Source: Hyunsoonleella jejuensis
GTDB lineage: Bacteria > Bacteroidota > Bacteroidia > Flavobacteriales > Flavobacteriaceae
Length of the DNA: 64,000 nt
Assembly: GCF_900111025.1 (NCBI RefSeq)
Contig: NZ_FOFN01000001.1
Location: forward strand, 62,001 to 126,000
Direction of reading: 5' to 3'
A program made the position numbers and the translations under genes. Below, one piece after another: positions 43,000 through 51,015 of the stretch (position 1 is the first letter of the stretch; each line of letters begins with the position of its first letter). Below the pieces are notes generated by a model. The model saw only the letters and a program-made list of their open reading frames with translations, made no database searches and was not told where the DNA came from.

Positions 43000-43515
43000 A
43001 TGAATTCTAAAATTATTGGTACCGTACTTTTTGTTTTTTTGGCATGTGGTTTACACAGTTACTCACAAGAGAATCAAAACAATTTTTGGAAACATGTAAG
43101 ATACGGTGGCGGATTAGGTTTAAATTTTGGTAACGGATTTTTTAGTGCTACTGTTGCGCCTAGTGCTATATATCAATTTAACCAACAAGTTGCCTTAGGT
43201 GTTGGATTAAACGCCACATTTAATAATCAAAAAGATGTTTTTAAAACTACAGTACTCGGGGGCAGTGTAATTGGCCTATACAATGTTATCCCAGAAATAC
43301 AGCTTTCGGTTGATTTTGAGCAACTTAACGTGAGCCGTAGATACGATATTAGGGTAAATGCAGAAGATGAAAACTATTGGTCTCCCGCCTTATTTTTAGG
43401 TGCAGGATATAGAAACAGAAATGTTATAGTTGGCATTAGGTATAATGTTTTGCATGATAGCGAAAAAAGTATTTATATAGATGCCTGGGTACCTTTTGTT
43501 AGATTTTTCTTTTAA
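43000..43515 (+). CDS. Small outer-membrane beta-barrel-like protein
   Basis: 171 residues. A signal peptide (LFVFLACGLHSYSQ) is followed by alternating Gly/aromatic strands (YGGGLGLNFGNGFFSATVAP; GVGLNATFNN; LFLGAGYRNRNVIVGI) and a terminal Phe run (FVRFFF), a barrel signal. Relatives are sometimes labelled alpha-ketoglutarate decarboxylase in databases; nothing in the sequence supports an enzyme. The stop touches the end of the convergent Rrf2 gene. Confidence 0.75.
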   Translation: MNSKIIGTVLFVFLACGLHSYSQENQNNFWKHVRYGGGLGLNFGNGFFSATVAPSAIYQFNQQVALGVGLNATFNNQKDVFKTTVLGGSVIGLYNVIPEIQLSVDFEQLNVSRRYDIRVNAEDENYWSPALFLGAGYRNRNVIVGIRYNVLHDSEKSIYIDAWVPFVRFFF

Positions 43516-43947
43516 CTATAATGGTAAAAAGGAATTACCGTTTTTTACATCTTCAGCTAAATCTTTGATCGTTGTTTTTTTAAGACGTGCTAAAATCTTC
43601 ATTCGTGAAGCACTTAAAATCTCATGTAATGGACATGGTTTTTCTTCATTACATTTATCTAAGCTAAGCATACAATTTGAAAGTCTTTCTTCGCCATCAA
43701 TTATCCTTAAAATATTGAAAACAGGTTGATTCCTATTCTCTTCACTCATGTAAAAACCACCCTTAGGACCGCGCGTGGATGATATCAAATTTTCCCTAGA
43801 TAGTTCTTGCAATAATTTTGCAATATAAGCTTGGGGCACATTTATTGGTGCTGATATGTCCTTCACCATAATCTTGTTCTTCTTACTTGAATGTATAGCG
43901 AGAAACAGAACGGATTTCACAGCGTACTTTGATGAATTTGAAAGCAT
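43516..43947 (-). CDS. Rrf2-family regulator with three Fe-S-type cysteines
   Basis: About 143 residues from the ATG at 43947, where the family start MLSNSSKYAVKSVLFLA begins; an extra upstream start would add nine atypical residues. The winged helix runs to about residue 70 (INVPQAYIAKLLQELSRENL, STRGPKGGF). CMLSLDKCNEEKPC has the spacing Cys-X6-Cys-X5-Cys, close to the [2Fe-2S]/[4Fe-4S] ligands of NsrR and IscR, so it probably senses NO or the cluster status. It is divergent from the nitrous oxide reductase operon and is its likely regulator. A TACATTTG -7 box sits only 4 bp before the start codon, so the transcript may be nearly leaderless. Confidence 0.88.
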   Translation of the reverse strand: MLSNSSKYAVKSVLFLAIHSSKKNKIMVKDISAPINVPQAYIAKLLQELSRENLISSTRGPKGGFYMSEENRNQPVFNILRIIDGEERLSNCMLSLDKCNEEKPCPLHEILSASRMKILARLKKTTIKDLAEDVKNGNSFLPL

Positions 43948-44049
43948 GGAACAAATGTAAATAAATCTAAACAAAACAAAAAAGATGTTTTTGTCTTAAA
44001 TATGATTTTTATCATAAAAAATTGCTGTTAAATAGAATAGATTTGTTCC
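43948..44049. promoter_or_regulatory. Divergent rrf2/nos promoters sharing a TAnATTTGTTCC motif
   Basis: On the minus strand TACATTTGTTCC ends at the Rrf2 start; on the plus strand TAGATTTGTTCC (44038-44049) lies 17 bp before the cytochrome c gene. Both contain an exact TAnnTTTG -7 box followed by TTCC, so they form an inverted pair about 90 bp apart. The TTCC extension is not part of the core promoter and could be a binding half-site of the Rrf2 regulator. Confidence 0.5.
44001..44016 (+). promoter_or_regulatory. Crp/Fnr-family-like operator of the nos operon
   Basis: TATGAT-TTTT-ATCATA, a perfect 6-4-6 palindrome close to the Fnr/Dnr consensus TTGAT-N4-ATCAA. Its centre (44008.5) is about 41-43 bp before the start point expected from the -7 box at 44038-44045, the class II activator position. 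No TTG lies at the normal -33 place, so activation by a Crp/Fnr-type protein would be needed. Confidence 0.55.
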
Positions 44050-44066
44050 ACTAAATTTATTTAAAC

Positions 44067-44561
44067 ATGAAAACAATACCAAAAATCTTAACTCTATTGC
44101 TACTAACGCTATTTATCTCCTGTGGAGGTAAAGAAGAAAAGAAAAAAGAAAAAATTCAGCTAAAATCTACCACTGAAAAAAAGGTGGAGAAAAAAACAGA
44201 AACAGTTCCACCTTCTAAGCGTGTAGATTTAAATAACAAAGGTGTCGGGCCTATTACATCATTAGAATTGTCTAGCGAAATAGACCAAGCTCTTGTAACT
44301 AAAGGTGAAGATATCTATAAAAAAATGTGCACAGCATGCCATAGAGTAGAGAAAAAATTTATTGGTCCAGCACCAAAAGGAATCTTAGAACGTCGTTCAC
44401 CAGAATGGGTAATGAATATGATTTTAAATCCTGAAAAAATGGTTAAAGAAGACCAACTAGCCAAGGACCTCTTAATGGAATTTAATGGATCGCCAATGGC
44501 CAACCAAAACTTAACAGAAGAAGAAGCTAGGGCTGTACTAGAATATTTTAGGACACTATAA
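44067..44561 (+). CDS. Cytochrome c lipoprotein of the nos operon
   Basis: 164 residues with a lipobox (LLTLFISCGGK), a Lys/Glu-rich linker to about residue 55, and a single c-type haem domain: CTACH at about residue 91, with GSPMANQNL giving the likely Met axial ligand. It probably delivers electrons to nitrous oxide reductase on the periplasmic side. First gene of the operon. Confidence 0.9.
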   Translation: MKTIPKILTLLLLTLFISCGGKEEKKKEKIQLKSTTEKKVEKKTETVPPSKRVDLNNKGVGPITSLELSSEIDQALVTKGEDIYKKMCTACHRVEKKFIGPAPKGILERRSPEWVMNMILNPEKMVKEDQLAKDLLMEFNGSPMANQNLTEEEARAVLEYFRTL

Positions 44562-44585: not shown

Positions 44586-45170
44586 ATGAAAACACTAATC
44601 AAATCATTATTAATGTTTACGCTGTTTGGGTGTTTTGTAGCTTGCAACAACTCTACAAAAGCATCTAATAGCGTAACAACTGACACTACTGCTGATGAGG
44701 CTTCGACCGAAAAAACAGGACAAGCTTTCATAAAAGATGAAGGTGGAGTACCAAATGCTTTACAGCTCGCTATCCAATCAGAAGACCACACAACATTAGT
44801 AGCTGCAGTGCAAGCGGCTGGTGTAGAAAATGCATTAGTGAATGTTGGCCCTTTAACTGTATTTGCACCTAATAATGCGGCTTTTGCAAAAATAGATAAA
44901 GCAACGTTGGATGATTTACTAAAACCAGAGAATAAAGGAAAATTAGCTTTTATTCTAACAAATCATGTAGCACCATCGAACTACCCTGTTGAAATGTTAA
45001 AAAAGAACGCCGAAAAAAACCGTAAACTATATATGGCTTCAGGCAAATATCTAGAAGTTACAGAAAAAGAAGGCGAACTTTATGTTGATGGCGTAAAAAT
45101 TATAGGAACTGTAAATGTAAGTAATGGTTGGGTACATGTTACTGAAGATGTTATCCTACCAAAAGACTAA
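44586..45170 (+). CDS. Fasciclin (FAS1) domain lipoprotein
   Basis: 194 residues: lipobox FGCFVACNNS, then one FAS1 domain from about residue 55: GPLTVFAPNNAAFAKI (H1 box), ILTNHVAPSNYPVEML, and VKIIGTVNVSNGWVHVTEDV (H2 box). FAS1 domains usually mediate adhesion or bind ligands. Here it lies between the cytochrome and nosZ with 24- and 30-bp gaps, so it is probably made together with them. The role in N2O respiration is unknown. Confidence 0.88.
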   Translation: MKTLIKSLLMFTLFGCFVACNNSTKASNSVTTDTTADEASTEKTGQAFIKDEGGVPNALQLAIQSEDHTTLVAAVQAAGVENALVNVGPLTVFAPNNAAFAKIDKATLDDLLKPENKGKLAFILTNHVAPSNYPVEMLKKNAEKNRKLYMASGKYLEVTEKEGELYVDGVKIIGTVNVSNGWVHVTEDVILPKD

Positions 45171-45200: not shown

Positions 45201-47150
45201 ATGAATAAAATAGGTAAATTCATATTAGCAATTACCACACTTGCTTTTATAACAAATTGTGGTAATAACTCTAATAGTAGCTCTGGGGCTATGTCTTCCA
45301 GCAAGGCAGAAAAAGTATATGTTGCACCGGGTGAACACGACGAGTACTACGCCTTCTTTTCTGGAGGTTACAGTGGAAATATTACTGTTGCAGGTCTGCC
45401 TAGTGGCCGTATGCTAAAAGAAATTCCTGTATTCTCTCAATTCCCAACATCAGGATATGGTTATTCTGAAGAAACTAAACCAATGTTAAATACATCTTTT
45501 GGTTTCGTGCCTTGGGGCGATGCGCATCACCCAGATATTTCTCAAACTAATGGAGAACTAGATGGCCGTTGGATTTTTATAAATGAGAATAACACGCCAC
45601 GTATAGCACGTATAAGTTTAGAAACTTTTGAAACAGAAGAAATTATTGAATTACCAAATAGTGCCGGTAATCACGCCTCTTCTTTCGTAACTGAAAATAC
45701 TGAGTATATCGTAGCAGGAACTCGTTTTGCTGTACCTAACCCACAACGCGATATGCCAATTAACGAAATGAAAGGACAATTTAAAGGCCCCCTTTCTTTT
45801 GTAAGTATTGCAGCTAATGGTAGAATGAATTTAGATTTCCAACTAAACATGCCTGGATTTAACTACGATTTAGCCCATCCAGGACGTAATAAATCTCACG
45901 GCTGGTTCTTCTTTACAAGTTATAATACTGAAGAAGCAAACACTTTAATGGAAGTGAATGCCTCCCAGAATGACAAAGATTACATCGCAGCTGTAAACTG
46001 GCAAAAAATTGCCGAATATGTTAAAAATGGTGGCGGAAAAAAAGTGGCAGGCACATATGCACACAATGTTTACAATGAAAAAACACATACGGCTACATCA
46101 ACAATGAAAGATGGAGTAACAATGGTTGATCCTAGAGAAGTAGCAGGTGCTGTATTCTATATTCCTATTCCAAAATCTCCACACGGTTGTGATGTTGATC
46201 CTTCTGGCGAATATATCGTTGGTAGTGGTAAACTATCTACCGATTTAAGTGTGTACTCATTTGAAAAAATACTTGCAGCTATAGAAAACAAAGATTTTGT
46301 TGGTGATTCTTATGGAATTCCAGTGTTAAGTTATGAAAATACAATAGCTGGTGTAGTAACACAACCTGGATTGGGACCTTTACACACAGAGTTTGATGGT
46401 AAAGGGAATGCTTATACAACATTCTTTATTTCTTCTGAAGTTGTAAAATGGAAATTAGGAACTTGGGAAGTTTTAGACAGACAACCAACATTCTATTCTG
46501 TGGGCCACTTAATGATTCCTGGTGGAAATTCTCGTAAGCCTTTTGGCAAATACATGGTTGCTATGAATAAAATCACAAAAGACCGTTACTTACCTACCGG
46601 ACCAGAGTTAGAGCACTCTGCACAACTATATGATATTTCTGGAGATAAAATGGAGTTACTATCCGATTTCCCAACTCATGGTGAACCTCACTATGCTGCA
46701 GGTATTAGAGCAGACATAATAAAAGAGAAAAGTAAAAAATACTATGAATTAGCCGAAAACGAGCATCCATATGCAGCCAAAAGCGAATCCGAAGCTAAGG
46801 TTACCCGTAATGGTAATGAAGTACATGTAAGTATGACTATGATTCGTAGTCATTTCTCTCCTGACAACATTGAAGGTATCAAGGTTGGAGATAAAGTATA
46901 CCTACATATGACCAATTTAGAACAAGATTTTGATGTACCTCATGGATTCTCAATAATTGGTGCTAATACATCAGAAATTTTAGTAATGCCCGGACAAACT
47001 AAAACCATTGTTTGGGAACCAAAACGCGAAGGTGTTTGGCCATTTTACTGTACAGACTTCTGTTCTGCGTTACACCAAGAAATGCAAGGTTACATTAGAG
47101 TATCTGGTAAAAATTCTAACACTCCCATTAAATTTACGTTAGATGAATAA
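45201..47150 (+). CDS. nosZ: Nitrous oxide reductase, clade II, lipoprotein form
   Basis: Copper enzyme that reduces N2O to N2. 649 residues. The N terminus is a Sec signal with a lipobox (LAFITNCGNN), not a Tat signal, so this is the atypical clade II form, membrane anchored. The CuZ histidines sit in GDAHHPDIS, GNHASSF, KSHGWFFF, and SPHGCDVDPS. The C-terminal cupredoxin domain has the CuA set: VPHGFSI and CTDFCSALHQEM (Cys-X3-Cys-X3-His-X2-Met). Nothing essential is missing. Its partners NosL, NosD, NosF and NosY follow; nosR is absent, as usual in clade II. An intercistronic hairpin follows. Confidence 0.96.
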   Translation: MNKIGKFILAITTLAFITNCGNNSNSSSGAMSSSKAEKVYVAPGEHDEYYAFFSGGYSGNITVAGLPSGRMLKEIPVFSQFPTSGYGYSEETKPMLNTSFGFVPWGDAHHPDISQTNGELDGRWIFINENNTPRIARISLETFETEEIIELPNSAGNHASSFVTENTEYIVAGTRFAVPNPQRDMPINEMKGQFKGPLSFVSIAANGRMNLDFQLNMPGFNYDLAHPGRNKSHGWFFFTSYNTEEANTLMEVNASQNDKDYIAAVNWQKIAEYVKNGGGKKVAGTYAHNVYNEKTHTATSTMKDGVTMVDPREVAGAVFYIPIPKSPHGCDVDPSGEYIVGSGKLSTDLSVYSFEKILAAIENKDFVGDSYGIPVLSYENTIAGVVTQPGLGPLHTEFDGKGNAYTTFFISSEVVKWKLGTWEVLDRQPTFYSVGHLMIPGGNSRKPFGKYMVAMNKITKDRYLPTGPELEHSAQLYDISGDKMELLSDFPTHGEPHYAAGIRADIIKEKSKKYYELAENEHPYAAKSESEAKVTRNGNEVHVSMTMIRSHFSPDNIEGIKVGDKVYLHMTNLEQDFDVPHGFSIIGANTSEILVMPGQTKTIVWEPKREGVWPFYCTDFCSALHQEMQGYIRVSGKNSNTPIKFTLDE

Positions 47151-47244: not shown

Positions 47245-47862
47245 ATGAAATTGGCAAGTATAATTATGATAATTGGCTCAGCATTGCTTCTTGGATTATT
47301 CATATTTCCTTTATGGAGTATTGAGTTAGAAGCACCGCAGTACCCAAGTGGTATTGGTATGAACATTCATCTTGATGGTTTAAAAGGTAGGGAAAAACAT
47401 GACCTTCAAAACATCGATGGGCTCAACCACTATATAGGTATGCGTAAATTACCAAAAGCCGATGAAATGTGGGAGTTCAGTGCCTTTCCAAAAGTAATTG
47501 GTGGTATGGCCGCCTTAGGTATTATTATAGGCTTATTAGGCTTGTTAAAAGGTATTTCTCCAAAATGGTTTTTAGGCTGGCTTATTTTAATGTGTATTCT
47601 TGGGGTTTTAGGTATGTACGATTTTAATAATTGGATGATTGATTATGGTACCAATCTAGATCCTAAAGCAATTATGAAAATGACTGATGCAGATGGAAAT
47701 CCTCTAAGTTATAAGCCACCTCTATTTGGAACCAAACATATTCTTAACTTTGTGGCGCACTCGTATCCAAGTACTGGGGCTTACATGATGGGATTTGGTA
47801 TGTTCTTAACTTTTGTAGCATATTGGATAGGGAATAAAAAAATGAAGTTAATAAAAGCATGA
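47245..47862 (+). CDS. Four-helix membrane protein of clade II nos operons
   Basis: 205 residues with about four membrane helices (ASIIMIIGSALLLGLFIFP; IGGMAALGIIIGLLGLL; WFLGWLILMCILGVLGMY; and a C-terminal one at GAYMMGFGMFLTFVAYWIG). The first external loop (PQYPSGIGMNIHLDGLKG) and a His/Pro pattern between helices 3 and 4 are distinctive. Proteins of this type sit in the same place in clade II nos clusters and may play the role of NosR/NosB in electron supply; this is inference. It overlaps nosL by 4 bp. Confidence 0.8.
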   Translation: MKLASIIMIIGSALLLGLFIFPLWSIELEAPQYPSGIGMNIHLDGLKGREKHDLQNIDGLNHYIGMRKLPKADEMWEFSAFPKVIGGMAALGIIIGLLGLLKGISPKWFLGWLILMCILGVLGMYDFNNWMIDYGTNLDPKAIMKMTDADGNPLSYKPPLFGTKHILNFVAHSYPSTGAYMMGFGMFLTFVAYWIGNKKMKLIKA

Positions 47863-48287
47863 AACATTCCGTCCTTATAATATTAATTTGTGTATTTATT
47901 AGTTGCAGTAAAACACCTGAGCCTATAAATTACGGAACAGATGTGTGTTACTATTGTAAAATGACAATTGTAACAAAAACACACGCTGCACAAATGGTGA
48001 ACAGTAAAGGCAAGCAATATAAGTTTGATGCTATTGAATGTATGATTCGTTTTTTAGATGATAAACCTGTTATTGTCTCAGAAAGCAATCTTTTAGTGAC
48101 GGATTACAACTCGCCAGGTACAATGATAGATGCTAAAAAAGCCAGCTACATTATTAGTGAAAAAATCTCAAGCCCCATGGGAGCGAACCTAACCGGGTTT
48201 AACTCTATGGATGCTGCTAAAGAAGTGATTAATAACACATCCGCAGCATATTTTGATTGGGAGGGTATTTTCAAAAAACTGAACTAA
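47859..48287 (+). CDS. nosL: Copper chaperone NosL
   Basis: 142-residue lipoprotein (LIILICVFISCSK). The metal-binding segment VCYYCKMTI near residue 28, followed by an Met/His-containing stretch, is the NosL pattern. The family delivers Cu(I) to NosZ in the periplasm. It overlaps the preceding gene and is 10 bp from nosD. Confidence 0.92.
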   Translation: MKHSVLIILICVFISCSKTPEPINYGTDVCYYCKMTIVTKTHAAQMVNSKGKQYKFDAIECMIRFLDDKPVIVSESNLLVTDYNSPGTMIDAKKASYIISEKISSPMGANLTGFNSMDAAKEVINNTSAAYFDWEGIFKKLN

Positions 48288-48297
48288 CTAAACGAGC

Positions 48298-49539
48298 ATG
48301 AAAATACACTTCAGTATTTTTTTATTTTTAATCTCAACCTGCTTTGCTATGGCAAAAACCCTTAAAGTCTGCAAAGTAGGTTGCGATTTTATAACCATAC
48401 AAAGCGCCATAGACGGCTCAAAAAGCGGCGACAGTATTTTTATAAAATCAGGATTGTATAAAGAATCAAACCTCATTATTTATAAAAAATCGCTTTATAT
48501 TACTGGTGAAGAAGGTACGGTTATAGATACGCAAAATAATGGCTACGGGTTTTCAGTTGAAGCAACAGATATCGTCATCAAAAATTTAGTCATAAAAAAT
48601 ATCAAAATTAGCTATACCAAAGAATATGCGGCAATTCTACTATTTAAATCGTATGACTTTATTATTGAAAATATCATCGTTGAAAATGCTTTTTTCGGAT
48701 TTCTAATTCAAAAATCTAAGGATGGATTTATCAGAAACAACACCATATCTGGCGAAGGAAAAGCAGAGGCAGATTCAGGCAATGCCATCCATCTATGGCA
48801 TTGCGAAAATGTAAAAATTACAGAAAACGACGTACGTAGAATGCGTGATGGCATTTATCTAGAATTTGGTAGTACTAGCTACATAGCCAATAACTACTCT
48901 ACTGAGAATATGAGGTATGGGTTACATTTTATGTTTTCCAATGATAATACATACCAAGACAATACTTTTGAATCCAATGGTGCTGGTGTTGCCGTTATGT
49001 TTTCAAAACGCATAAAAATGTACAAAAACATCTTTAAAAAAAATTGGGGAACAGCGTCGTACGGTATATTGCTAAAAGAAATAAACGATGCCGAACTTAA
49101 ACATAATATTTTTGAAGATAACACCATAGGTATTAATGCTGATGGCACTAACCGCATTATATATACAGAGAACACTTTTAAAAACAATGGTTACGCCATA
49201 AAGGTGCATGGTGCCTGCTACGACAACATCTATAGTAAAAATAATTTTCTCTACAACTCCTTCAATCTTTCTTATTCTGGAAAACTAAACAGTAATAAAT
49301 TTGAGAATAACTATTGGAGCAATTATACCGGCTACGATTTAAATAATGACGGTATTGGCGATGTACCTTACAGACCAGTAAAACTATTTTCGTACTTAGT
49401 AAACCGAACACCTGAGAGTATTGTTTTACTAAGAAGCTTATTCATAGATATTATTGATTTCTCTGAAAAAGTATCACCAGTTTTTACTCCAGAAAACCTC
49501 ATTGACAAGCAACCATTAATGAACCAAGTATCATGGTAG
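48298..49539 (+). CDS. nosD: Nitrous oxide reductase maturation protein NosD
   Basis: 413 residues, signal peptide (LISTCFAMAK), then a right-handed beta helix built of NosD/CASH repeats (DGIYLEFGSTSYIANNY; NDNTYQDNTFESNGAGVA). The ending NYWSNYTGYDLNNDGIGD is the family hallmark. It works with the NosFY transporter to supply sulfur for the CuZ centre. It overlaps nosF by 7 bp. Confidence 0.94.
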   Translation: MKIHFSIFLFLISTCFAMAKTLKVCKVGCDFITIQSAIDGSKSGDSIFIKSGLYKESNLIIYKKSLYITGEEGTVIDTQNNGYGFSVEATDIVIKNLVIKNIKISYTKEYAAILLFKSYDFIIENIIVENAFFGFLIQKSKDGFIRNNTISGEGKAEADSGNAIHLWHCENVKITENDVRRMRDGIYLEFGSTSYIANNYSTENMRYGLHFMFSNDNTYQDNTFESNGAGVAVMFSKRIKMYKNIFKKNWGTASYGILLKEINDAELKHNIFEDNTIGINADGTNRIIYTENTFKNNGYAIKVHGACYDNIYSKNNFLYNSFNLSYSGKLNSNKFENNYWSNYTGYDLNNDGIGDVPYRPVKLFSYLVNRTPESIVLLRSLFIDIIDFSEKVSPVFTPENLIDKQPLMNQVSW

Positions 49540-50240
49540 AAATTAAAGATTTACATAAAACCTTTGGTAAAAACAATGTGCTTAACGGTGTTGATTTAAA
49601 TATTACTAAAGGAGGAATTTTTGCGATACTTGGGCCAAATGGCTCTGGTAAAACTACCATCATTAAATCTATTTTAGGTATGGTAATTCCAGACAGTGGT
49701 ACAATTAAAGTTTTTGACACTAACATTAAAAATAATTCGGACTACAAACATAAAATTGATTATTTGCCCCAAATTGCCAATTTTCCTAACAACCTCAAAG
49801 TTATGGAGCTGGTTAAAATGATAAAAGATTTAAGAGGTGATACTGATAAAGATAAAACACTAATAGAAACCTTTAAATTAGAGCCGTTTTTAAACAAAAA
49901 ACTCAGTACACTTTCTGGTGGCACAAAACAAAAGGTAAATATCTTGTTAACGTTTATGTTCGATAGCCCAATAATTGTTTTAGACGAACCAACCACGGGC
50001 TTAGATCCTATTTCACTTATACGTTTAAAAGAGCTAATAGATGTAGAAAAACAAAAAGGAAAAGCTATTCTGATAACCTCTCATATTATGAGTTTTGTTG
50101 AAGAAGTTGCTGATGAAGTTGTGTTTATACTCGAAGGTAAAATATATTTTAGAGGCAGTATTTCTGCATTAAAAAACAAAACCAATCAGGATGATTTTGA
50201 ACACGCTATTGCTAACATTTTAATAGAAAATCATGTTTAA
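49533..50240 (+). CDS. nosF: ABC transporter ATPase NosF
   Basis: 235 residues with Walker A GPNGSGKTTIIKS, signature LSGGTKQKVNI, and Walker B IIVLDEPTTGLDP. It drives NosY. Overlaps both neighbours by 7-8 bp, so translation is coupled. Confidence 0.94.
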   Translation: MVEIKDLHKTFGKNNVLNGVDLNITKGGIFAILGPNGSGKTTIIKSILGMVIPDSGTIKVFDTNIKNNSDYKHKIDYLPQIANFPNNLKVMELVKMIKDLRGDTDKDKTLIETFKLEPFLNKKLSTLSGGTKQKVNILLTFMFDSPIIVLDEPTTGLDPISLIRLKELIDVEKQKGKAILITSHIMSFVEEVADEVVFILEGKIYFRGSISALKNKTNQDDFEHAIANILIENHV

Positions 50241-51015
50241 AATATTAAAATATAGTTTTTATGATTTGATGCGCAGTAGCTGGAGCTATGTTTACCTTGG
50301 CTTCTATCTTCTATTGGGAATGGTGCTATTGTTTTTAAACAACGATTTGTCAAAAGCCGTTATCACTCTAATGAATGTTATCATTGTGTTAGTACCTTTA
50401 ATCGGCACTATTTTTGGCGTTATGTATTATTACAATTCTAAAGAATTTACCGAATTGCTTTTAGCACAACCTTTAAAACGCTCATCAATATTCTTAGGAC
50501 AATATTTAGGTGTTGCCCTGTCCCTATCTATGAGTTTGATTCTTGGTTTGGGACTACCATTTATAGCATATGGCCTGTTTAAATCTTCGGCTATTTGGGA
50601 TTTTTCACTCTTACTTATTGTTGGTGTTTTTTTAACTTTCATATTTAGTGCATTGGCTTTCAATATTGCGCTATCTTATGAAAACAAAATCAAGGGATTT
50701 GGTTACGCTATATTAATGTGGTTATTCTTAGCCATTATTTATGACGGGTTGTTTTTAATGTCTCTTATACTGTTTGAAGATTACCCGCTTGATAAAGTTT
50801 CTCTAATTGGCACAATGCTAAACCCTATAGATTTATCCAGAACACTTATTCTTTTAAAGCTAGATATTTCAGCCTTATTAGGATATACTGGTGCGGTATT
50901 TAAGCAATTTTTTGGCACCAGCTTTGGACTAATTATTTCATTTATAATGCTAACTATTTGGGTAATTTTACCTGTTTCAAAAATAGTTTTTAAATCAAAG
51001 AAAAAAGATTTTTAA
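50233..51015 (+). CDS. nosY: ABC transporter permease NosY
   Basis: 260 residues with six membrane helices and the ABC-2 pattern (YNSKEFTELLLAQPLKRSSI in the coupling loop). It is the last gene of the operon; its TAA overlaps the stop of the convergent hypothetical gene (TTAA). Confidence 0.93.
   Translation: MFKILKYSFYDLMRSSWSYVYLGFYLLLGMVLLFLNNDLSKAVITLMNVIIVLVPLIGTIFGVMYYYNSKEFTELLLAQPLKRSSIFLGQYLGVALSLSMSLILGLGLPFIAYGLFKSSAIWDFSLLLIVGVFLTFIFSALAFNIALSYENKIKGFGYAILMWLFLAIIYDGLFLMSLILFEDYPLDKVSLIGTMLNPIDLSRTLILLKLDISALLGYTGAVFKQFFGTSFGLIISFIMLTIWVILPVSKIVFKSKKKDF

Follow-up and report, generated by a model that had tools for sequence, protein, structure and literature searches.

Among Bacteroidota, the N2O reducers of clade II are regarded as a major sink for N2O. 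NsrR, a protein of the Rrf2 family, is said from work of Browning in 2010 to down-regulate the nrf promoter of E. coli from an upstream site. The same promoter is subject to class II activation by FNR from position -41.5, as described in the accessible passages of PMC5434802, and enterobacterial hcp-hcr carries an FNR site together with an NsrR palindrome, gATGyAT-N5-ATrCATc (excerpts of PMC1274295). That clade II nos clusters or scaffolds carry linked Rrf2 genes has already been published (passages of PMC6264515). The consulted parts of the literature give no account of how nos is switched on in clade II N2O-reducing Bacteroidota, and the available passages of PMC8510549 and PMC9697520 mention neither Fnr boxes nor nos promoters from Flavobacteriaceae.

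We analysed a stretch of 64,000 nt from Hyunsoonleella jejuensis (the window), in which a gene for an Rrf2-family regulator is divergent from a nos operon with genes for a cytochrome, a fasciclin-domain protein, nosZ, a protein without an assigned family, nosL, nosD and an ABC pair (Table 1). A fasciclin-domain gene occurs together with the nos cytochrome gene in 44 of 48 rrf2-nos loci. The gene at 43000-43515, convergent with rrf2, encodes a protein without a Pfam family; it is matched in 20 of the 48 loci and in several loci with the composite site described below. Another genome, G133 (locus L014), has a second nos-like cytochrome c gene on the opposite flank of rrf2. The genome of the window (G000) yielded no match to ScdA_N/Ric and no NirK of the type tested; with nosZ present, the organism might reduce N2O while lacking the upstream steps of denitrification.

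Table 1. Features of the rrf2-nos region, in positions of the window.
Feature	Position	Strand	Basis
Rrf2-family regulator, 143 aa, C-X6-C-X5-C-X2-H	43516..43947	-	Pfam Rrf2, locus linkage, AF2 model
First nos operon gene, for a c-type cytochrome	44067..44561	+	Pfam PF00034
Fasciclin-domain gene	44586..45170	+	Pfam PF02469
nosZ, clade II Sec-dependent N2O reductase	45201..47150	+	TIGR04246, 920 bits (cut-off 625)
Predicted nos operon gene, without Pfam family	47245..47862	+	
nosL	47859..48287	+	PF05573
nosD	48298..49539	+	TIGR04247, PF05048
ABC ATPase, nosF-like by position	49533..50240	+	PF00005
nosY-like by position only, no Pfam match	50233..51015	+	
Element A, AAGATGTTTTTGTCTT (ARGAY-N6-RTCYT), predicted Rrf2-clade operator	43982..43997	.	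Comparative
Box B, TATGATTTTTATCATA, putative Crp/Fnr-type activator box, centred at -41.5 of the predicted nos start	44001..44016	.	
nos -7 element TAGATTTG, predicted +1 at 44050	44038..44045	+	TAnnTTTG at -12 to -5, available passages of PMC9723704
Possible rrf2 -7 element TTGTTTTG, differing from TAnnTTTG at one base; distance to A 2 bp, to B 21 bp	43972..43979	-	
TACATTTGTTCC of the sequence-only reading; perfect -7 element, would give a leaderless rrf2 mRNA; TTCC part unconserved	43948..43959	-	
TTCC behind the nos -7 element, unconserved (2/119)	44046..44049	+	

The intergenic regions between rrf2 and nos contain two adjoining dyads, A (ARGAY-N6-RTCYT) and B (ATGAY-N4-RTCAT). Dyad A of the window is followed after 3 bp by B, here in the form TATGAY-N4-RTCATA, and after a further 21 bp by the -7 element of nos. 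An earlier interpretation of the window, made from its letters and open reading frames (the sequence-only reading), overlooked dyad A. The rrf2-nos region carries a real, conserved composite operator, for which we infer binding by the two proteins. The strict composite, defined as A, 2-5 bases and the core of B, has 93 matches in 89 of the 299 genomes of the family, against 2 matches of the reversed pattern, and the window holds one match versus 0.00 expected. Eighty-one of the 93 matches front nos, one per genome (80 by sequence, G293 by coordinates), including genomes in which rrf2 is not adjacent. A phylum-wide draw of 395 genomes returned the composite in 14, all of family f1 and six of them already present in the first draw, with 2 in the reversed control; no strict composite was found outside Flavobacteriaceae among these phylum genomes. 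Scans of the window's genome with single sites were set aside as unspecific: A alone has 55 places versus 186 in the reversed control, and B alone, at up to two mismatches, 823 versus 1074. Specificity in such own-genome scans belongs to the composite only, not to its single sites. Covariation within dyad A is modest, the value of pair 2/15 being reached by 20 of 2000 shuffles and that of pair 5/12 by 1791 of 2000.

In many Flavobacteriaceae, the two boxes stand in front of nos at a fixed spacing. NosZ is present in 139 of the 299 genomes, and 136 nos loci were examined, leaving out the fragmentary G058 and G124, and G293. The strict B core occurs in 124 of them; among the other 12, G001, G016, G135 and G155 have B with one mismatch and the locus of G066 ends at a contig end. 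Four promoters (G142, G007, G077 and G252) have A without a strict B. Of the 124 promoters with B, 119 have a -7-like element 17-25 bp 3' of it; sought within this range, the spacing is 21 bp in 112 and 19 bp in seven, and five promoters have none. The gap between A and B is 3 bp in 85 of 101 promoters, 4 bp in 13 and 2 bp in 3. When strict A is sought up to 120 bp upstream of B in the 119 nos promoters, it occurs only at gaps of 2-4 bp (80 promoters) or, one helical turn further, of 11-13 bp (G222, G118, G033 and G259), with none in the reversed control. Across 112 distinct composite sites, TAnnTTTG lies on the B side at exactly 21 bp from B in 95 and at 20 bp in one, and 16 sites have none on that side; on the A side, 27 sites have it 1-3 bp from A, 17 have it at other distances and 68 lack it.

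TAnnTTTG is the general sigmaA -7 element of Flavobacteriaceae, situated at -12 to -5 from mapped starts in Flavobacterium psychrophilum according to the available passages of PMC9723704, and TAGATTTG of the window conforms to it. Applied to the nos promoter, this position leads to a predicted +1 at 44050 and a TGAY-N4-RTCA dyad centred at -41.5, the class II position of Crp/Fnr proteins, with A predicted at -60.5. The sequence-only reading had put TATGATTTTTATCATA at class II distance, with which the predicted start agrees. It had also remarked that the nos promoter lacks a -33 TTG, rightly so: the sole TTG between B and the -7 element ends 13 bp before the latter and is not a -33 element because it is too close.

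We propose that the composite operator probably subjects Fnr-type activation to gating by an NsrR-like Rrf2 repressor. Comparison establishes that both boxes exist, how they are spaced, that A goes with Rrf2 and which genes are involved. A protein of the Crp/Fnr family, most likely responsive to low oxygen, would occupy B at -41.5 and drive nos; by its spacing, B could drive rrf2 as well. Element A, which abuts B, would be the operator read by the divergently encoded Rrf2 protein. At nos, A stands at -60.5 next to the activator, so that Rrf2 bound there should interfere with the activator or with alpha-CTD. In a majority of relatives A falls within the core promoter of rrf2, and in genus g128 within that of nirK and norC-like genes; Rrf2 bound at these places should block RNA polymerase. 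The probable sensor is an iron-sulphur cluster on C-X6-C-X5-C-X2-H. Damage of the cluster by NO would abolish DNA binding, and the denitrification genes would be released only at low oxygen and in the presence of nitrogen oxides.

The protein itself belongs to the Rrf2 superfamily, with 97.2 bits (E 1.1e-27, cut-off 30) for PF02082 and 94.7 bits (cut-off 73.3) for TIGR00738. It reaches none of the listed equivalog cut-offs of the NCBIfam profiles, scoring 40.6 bits for NsrR (NF008240, cut-off 182) and 63.2 bits for IscR (TIGR02010, cut-off 207.55). The gene, with its ATG at 43947, encodes the Cys-X6-Cys-X5-Cys motif recognised in the sequence-only reading as C92-X6-C99-X5-C105. These cysteines, three as in NsrR, are invariant in an alignment of 21 proteins together with H108, and C-X6-C-X5-C-X2-H recurs in 104 of 105 proteins, the exception being the distant L002. 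The ligand set of IscR is C-X5-C-X5-C-X2-H; the Rrf2 proteins share its histidine two residues past the last cysteine and have X6 where IscR has X5. An AF2 model built from the 21 sequences (pLDDT 88.8) matches the structures of RsrR, CymR, IscR and NsrR with E values of 1.4e-8 to 1e-5. The description of the regulator as close to NsrR is only fair, in view of the equivalog cut-offs, with 63 bits for IscR against 41 for NsrR, and of the conserved histidine. Relatives of the protein occur in 166 of the 299 family genomes (match at E <= 1e-15), and rrf2 shares its locus with a nos cytochrome gene in 48 of 71 loci. The paralogues L053, L061 and L064 have an A site and no B, and L064 with its A is divergent from nadA, an Fe-S enzyme gene. 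A second Rrf2 subfamily, of CGLGL type (L065-L069), has an extended palindrome before the start codon, clearest in L069 (AATTAGGATAAGTTTATCCTAATT).

The genes behind the composite bear on the signal. Of the 12 matches away from nos, two each belong to ric, to nirK and to genes for small Cys-containing proteins, one each to a nosL-like fusion, YceI and a porin of the alginate-export type, and one lies beside a Crp gene; the remaining two (L109 and L110) look like chance and were discarded as targets. In genus g128 of the phylum-wide draw, the composite lies beside nirK at seven loci, beside a norC-like cytochrome gene that has a COX1-type subunit gene behind it, and beside a gene for a narK-like transporter. 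One NirK of each kind (L100 and L225) exceeds the cut-off of TIGR02376 and one Ric (L098) that of TIGR03652, the others being named by likeness; the NarK-like protein stays below its cut-off (195 of 312 bits), and the norC-like gene is named from its sequence and neighbour. The Rrf2 protein might instead sense oxygen, redox or iron, like IscR or RirA, a reading that is possible, if doubtful. It is favoured by the better score of IscR among the equivalog models, by the resemblance of C-X6-C-X5-C-X2-H to the ligand set of IscR and by the paralogue with A beside nadA, but the composite targets nos, nirK, norC-like and ric make up a nitrosative and denitrification set, which fits NO.

The sign of regulation is suggested by the order of the boxes. 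At six of the seven g128 nirK loci and at the norC-like locus, TAnnTTTG lies 1 bp from A in the order B-4-A-1-(-7), 21 bp in all. The nirK genes of G115 and G245 show the nos-type order, with A upstream of B and outside the core promoter. An A-like site lies between B and the -7 element of three nos promoters (G076, G114 and G287). On the rrf2 side, 27 of 48 regions have a -7 element (at most one mismatch) at a distance of 1-4 bp from A, 25 of them at 2-3 bp. Among the 44 regions in which A is present on this side, a -7-like element (at most one mismatch) is found at 0-6 bp in 27, at 7-13 bp in 14 and at 14-20 bp in six, and 17 have no good -7 element adjoining A. From these arrangements we derive a wider reading, with the balance of probability level: an unnamed Rrf2 clade with a new 16-bp operator, joined to an Fnr-type box in a rigid module, would act as a denitrification master switch across Flavobacteriaceae (nirK, norC-like, nosZ and ric). 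Box order alone would then give two logics, anti-activation where A is upstream of B (nos) and a road-block where the core promoter contains A (rrf2 in many cases, g128 nirK and norC-like); under both, the activator would stay at -41.5, with 21-22 bp between it and the -7 element.

An unlikely alternative takes Rrf2 as a co-activator at nos, aiding the class II activator or RNA polymerase from -60.5 and repressing only at promoters with A in their core. The related IscR is capable of activation; A keeps to one helical face upstream of B (gaps of 2-4 or 11-13 bp), and in the promoters of G142, G007 and G077, where A occurs in the absence of a strict B, its end is 17-18 bp away from the -7 element, where an activator could also sit. 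The core-promoter sites at g128 nirK, norC-like and often rrf2, and those between B and -7 in three nos promoters, point to repression instead. Moreover, nos promoters of genomes that lack an Rrf2 match keep B and have no A, so A is seemingly not required for the promoter to exist. We therefore retain repression as the more plausible action of Rrf2 at nos.

The Rrf2 site is most likely element A, as judged from its distribution. With up to one mismatch, A stands beside B at nos in 101 of 117 Rrf2-positive genomes and in none of seven Rrf2-negative ones (Fisher 3.3e-6); for exact A the counts are 80 of 117 and none of seven (Fisher 5e-4). Both values are nominal because the genomes are related and kinship is ignored, and Rrf2-negative denotes no match at E <= 1e-15 to one query. 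Ordered by the place of rrf2, with a -7 element required, A is present in 63 of 65 promoters with rrf2 adjacent, in 37 of 48 with rrf2 elsewhere and in none of six without it. In genus g64, G063 has an Rrf2 match and both A and B, and G279 has neither the match nor A, yet keeps B. In 16 of the 117 Rrf2-positive promoters with B, A is missing from its usual position: G033, G118 and G259 have it about one turn further, G076 between B and -7, and G027, G080, G201 and G289 have A with two mismatches; G022, G042, G047, G174, G186, G225, G251 and G263 show no A there. The association extends to rrf2 genes themselves. Within loci with nos, A precedes 56 of 72 rrf2 genes exactly and 69 of 72 when one mismatch is allowed, against 0 and 2 for the reversed control. 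Among 33 rrf2 genes without a nos cytochrome nearby, which include paralogues (L064) and the CGLGL-type subfamily (L065-L069), 17 have exact A and 26 A with at most one mismatch within 130 bp upstream (reversed control 0 and 2). That A is bound by some other protein and merely coincides with rrf2 is improbable: its binding by Rrf2 is a prediction from sequence, and A is short, AT-rich in the middle and present bare at 55 places in the genome, but it stands in front of rrf2 genes that are not near nos, and the nos promoters of genomes lacking an Rrf2 match do not have it.

Double control by a Crp/Fnr activator and an Rrf2 protein had been suggested in the sequence-only reading, and comparison upholds both this idea and the Crp/Fnr box, though not the site assigned to Rrf2. 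That site was the TTTGTTCC part of a 12-mer, TAnATTTGTTCC, shared by the divergent promoters. The 12-mer has indeed exactly two copies in the window, TACATTTGTTCC on the rrf2 side and TAGATTTGTTCC at 44038-44049 (+), but nothing beyond coincidence attaches to the sharing. Its TAnATTTG part is an ordinary -7 element of Flavobacteriaceae. TTCC directly follows the -7 element in two of the 119 nos promoters with strict B and -7. In the 48 rrf2-nos intergenic regions, of which L039 is incomplete on the nos side, TTTGTTCC occurs on the nos side in two, those of L038 and the window, and only the window has it on the rrf2 side; GGAACAAA is likewise found on the rrf2 side of the window only (1/48). 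What the two promoters share is thus a -7 element, and the rest is coincidence. Should the rrf2-side copy serve as a perfect -7 element, +1 would fall on the A of the rrf2 ATG. Recognition of the TTTGTTCC halves of both promoters by Rrf2, for which the two exact copies speak, deserves almost no credence, since TAnnTTTG is the -7 element, TTCC follows it in 2/119 nos promoters and the rrf2-side copy occurs in 1/48 regions; TTTGTTCC was ruled out as an operator, the motif pair being unconserved in relatives, which had been named beforehand as grounds for refutation.

The protein at B would be one of the Crp-type proteins, seven of which exceed the cut-off in the window's genome. Candidate L073, with an FNR-like Cys pattern identified by eye, has relatives of at least 54% identity in 49 of the 299 genomes, and proteins of the L072 type are matched in 176 of 299 at E <= 1e-60; at these cut-offs neither was found in all B-bearing genomes. 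We fetched 17 regions around chosen single A or B places in the window's genome. Within the set of L083, L082, L085 and L080, B with a -7 element at 21 bp precedes three genes, for PFOR (here some 310 bp separate B and the ATG), for an SQR-like protein and for a lipoprotein, which is suggestive of an anaerobic box and no proof of it. A B-type box also lies between a hemA-like and an AraC-like gene of the same genome, both named from sequence only.

The defined operator, candidate regulator, predicted starts and gene set make the control of N2O consumption by oxygen and NO directly testable, and a wrong motif is replaced before it enters annotation. The sequence-only reading knew of no described operator of this kind in Bacteroidota, and we likewise found none in the literature searched, from which subscription papers were mostly out of reach. 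Linkage to Rrf2 genes is reported for clade II nosZ of Bacteroidota, in passages of PMC6264515 that give no binding site, promoter geometry or regulon. In Proteobacteria, DNR controls nosZ through CTTGATnnnnATCAAG, which has the TGAT-N4-ATCA core of B (excerpts of PMC1274295); the half-site of B differs from the DNR box in beginning with A (ATGAY), not T. Enterobacterial hcp-hcr resembles the present locus in pairing an anaerobic Fnr-type box with an Rrf2 operator (excerpts of PMC1274295), but there the second motif lies downstream of the FNR site, and A, as ARGAY-N6-RTCYT, departs from the NsrR consensus gATGyAT-N5-ATrCATc. The nearest precedent is E. coli nrf, with FNR at -41.5 and an Rrf2 protein, NsrR, at an upstream site. 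The locus of the window differs from it in operator sequence, phylum and promoter type, in its abutting boxes with a fixed gap and its divergent rrf2 gene, and in having denitrification genes in the place of nrf.
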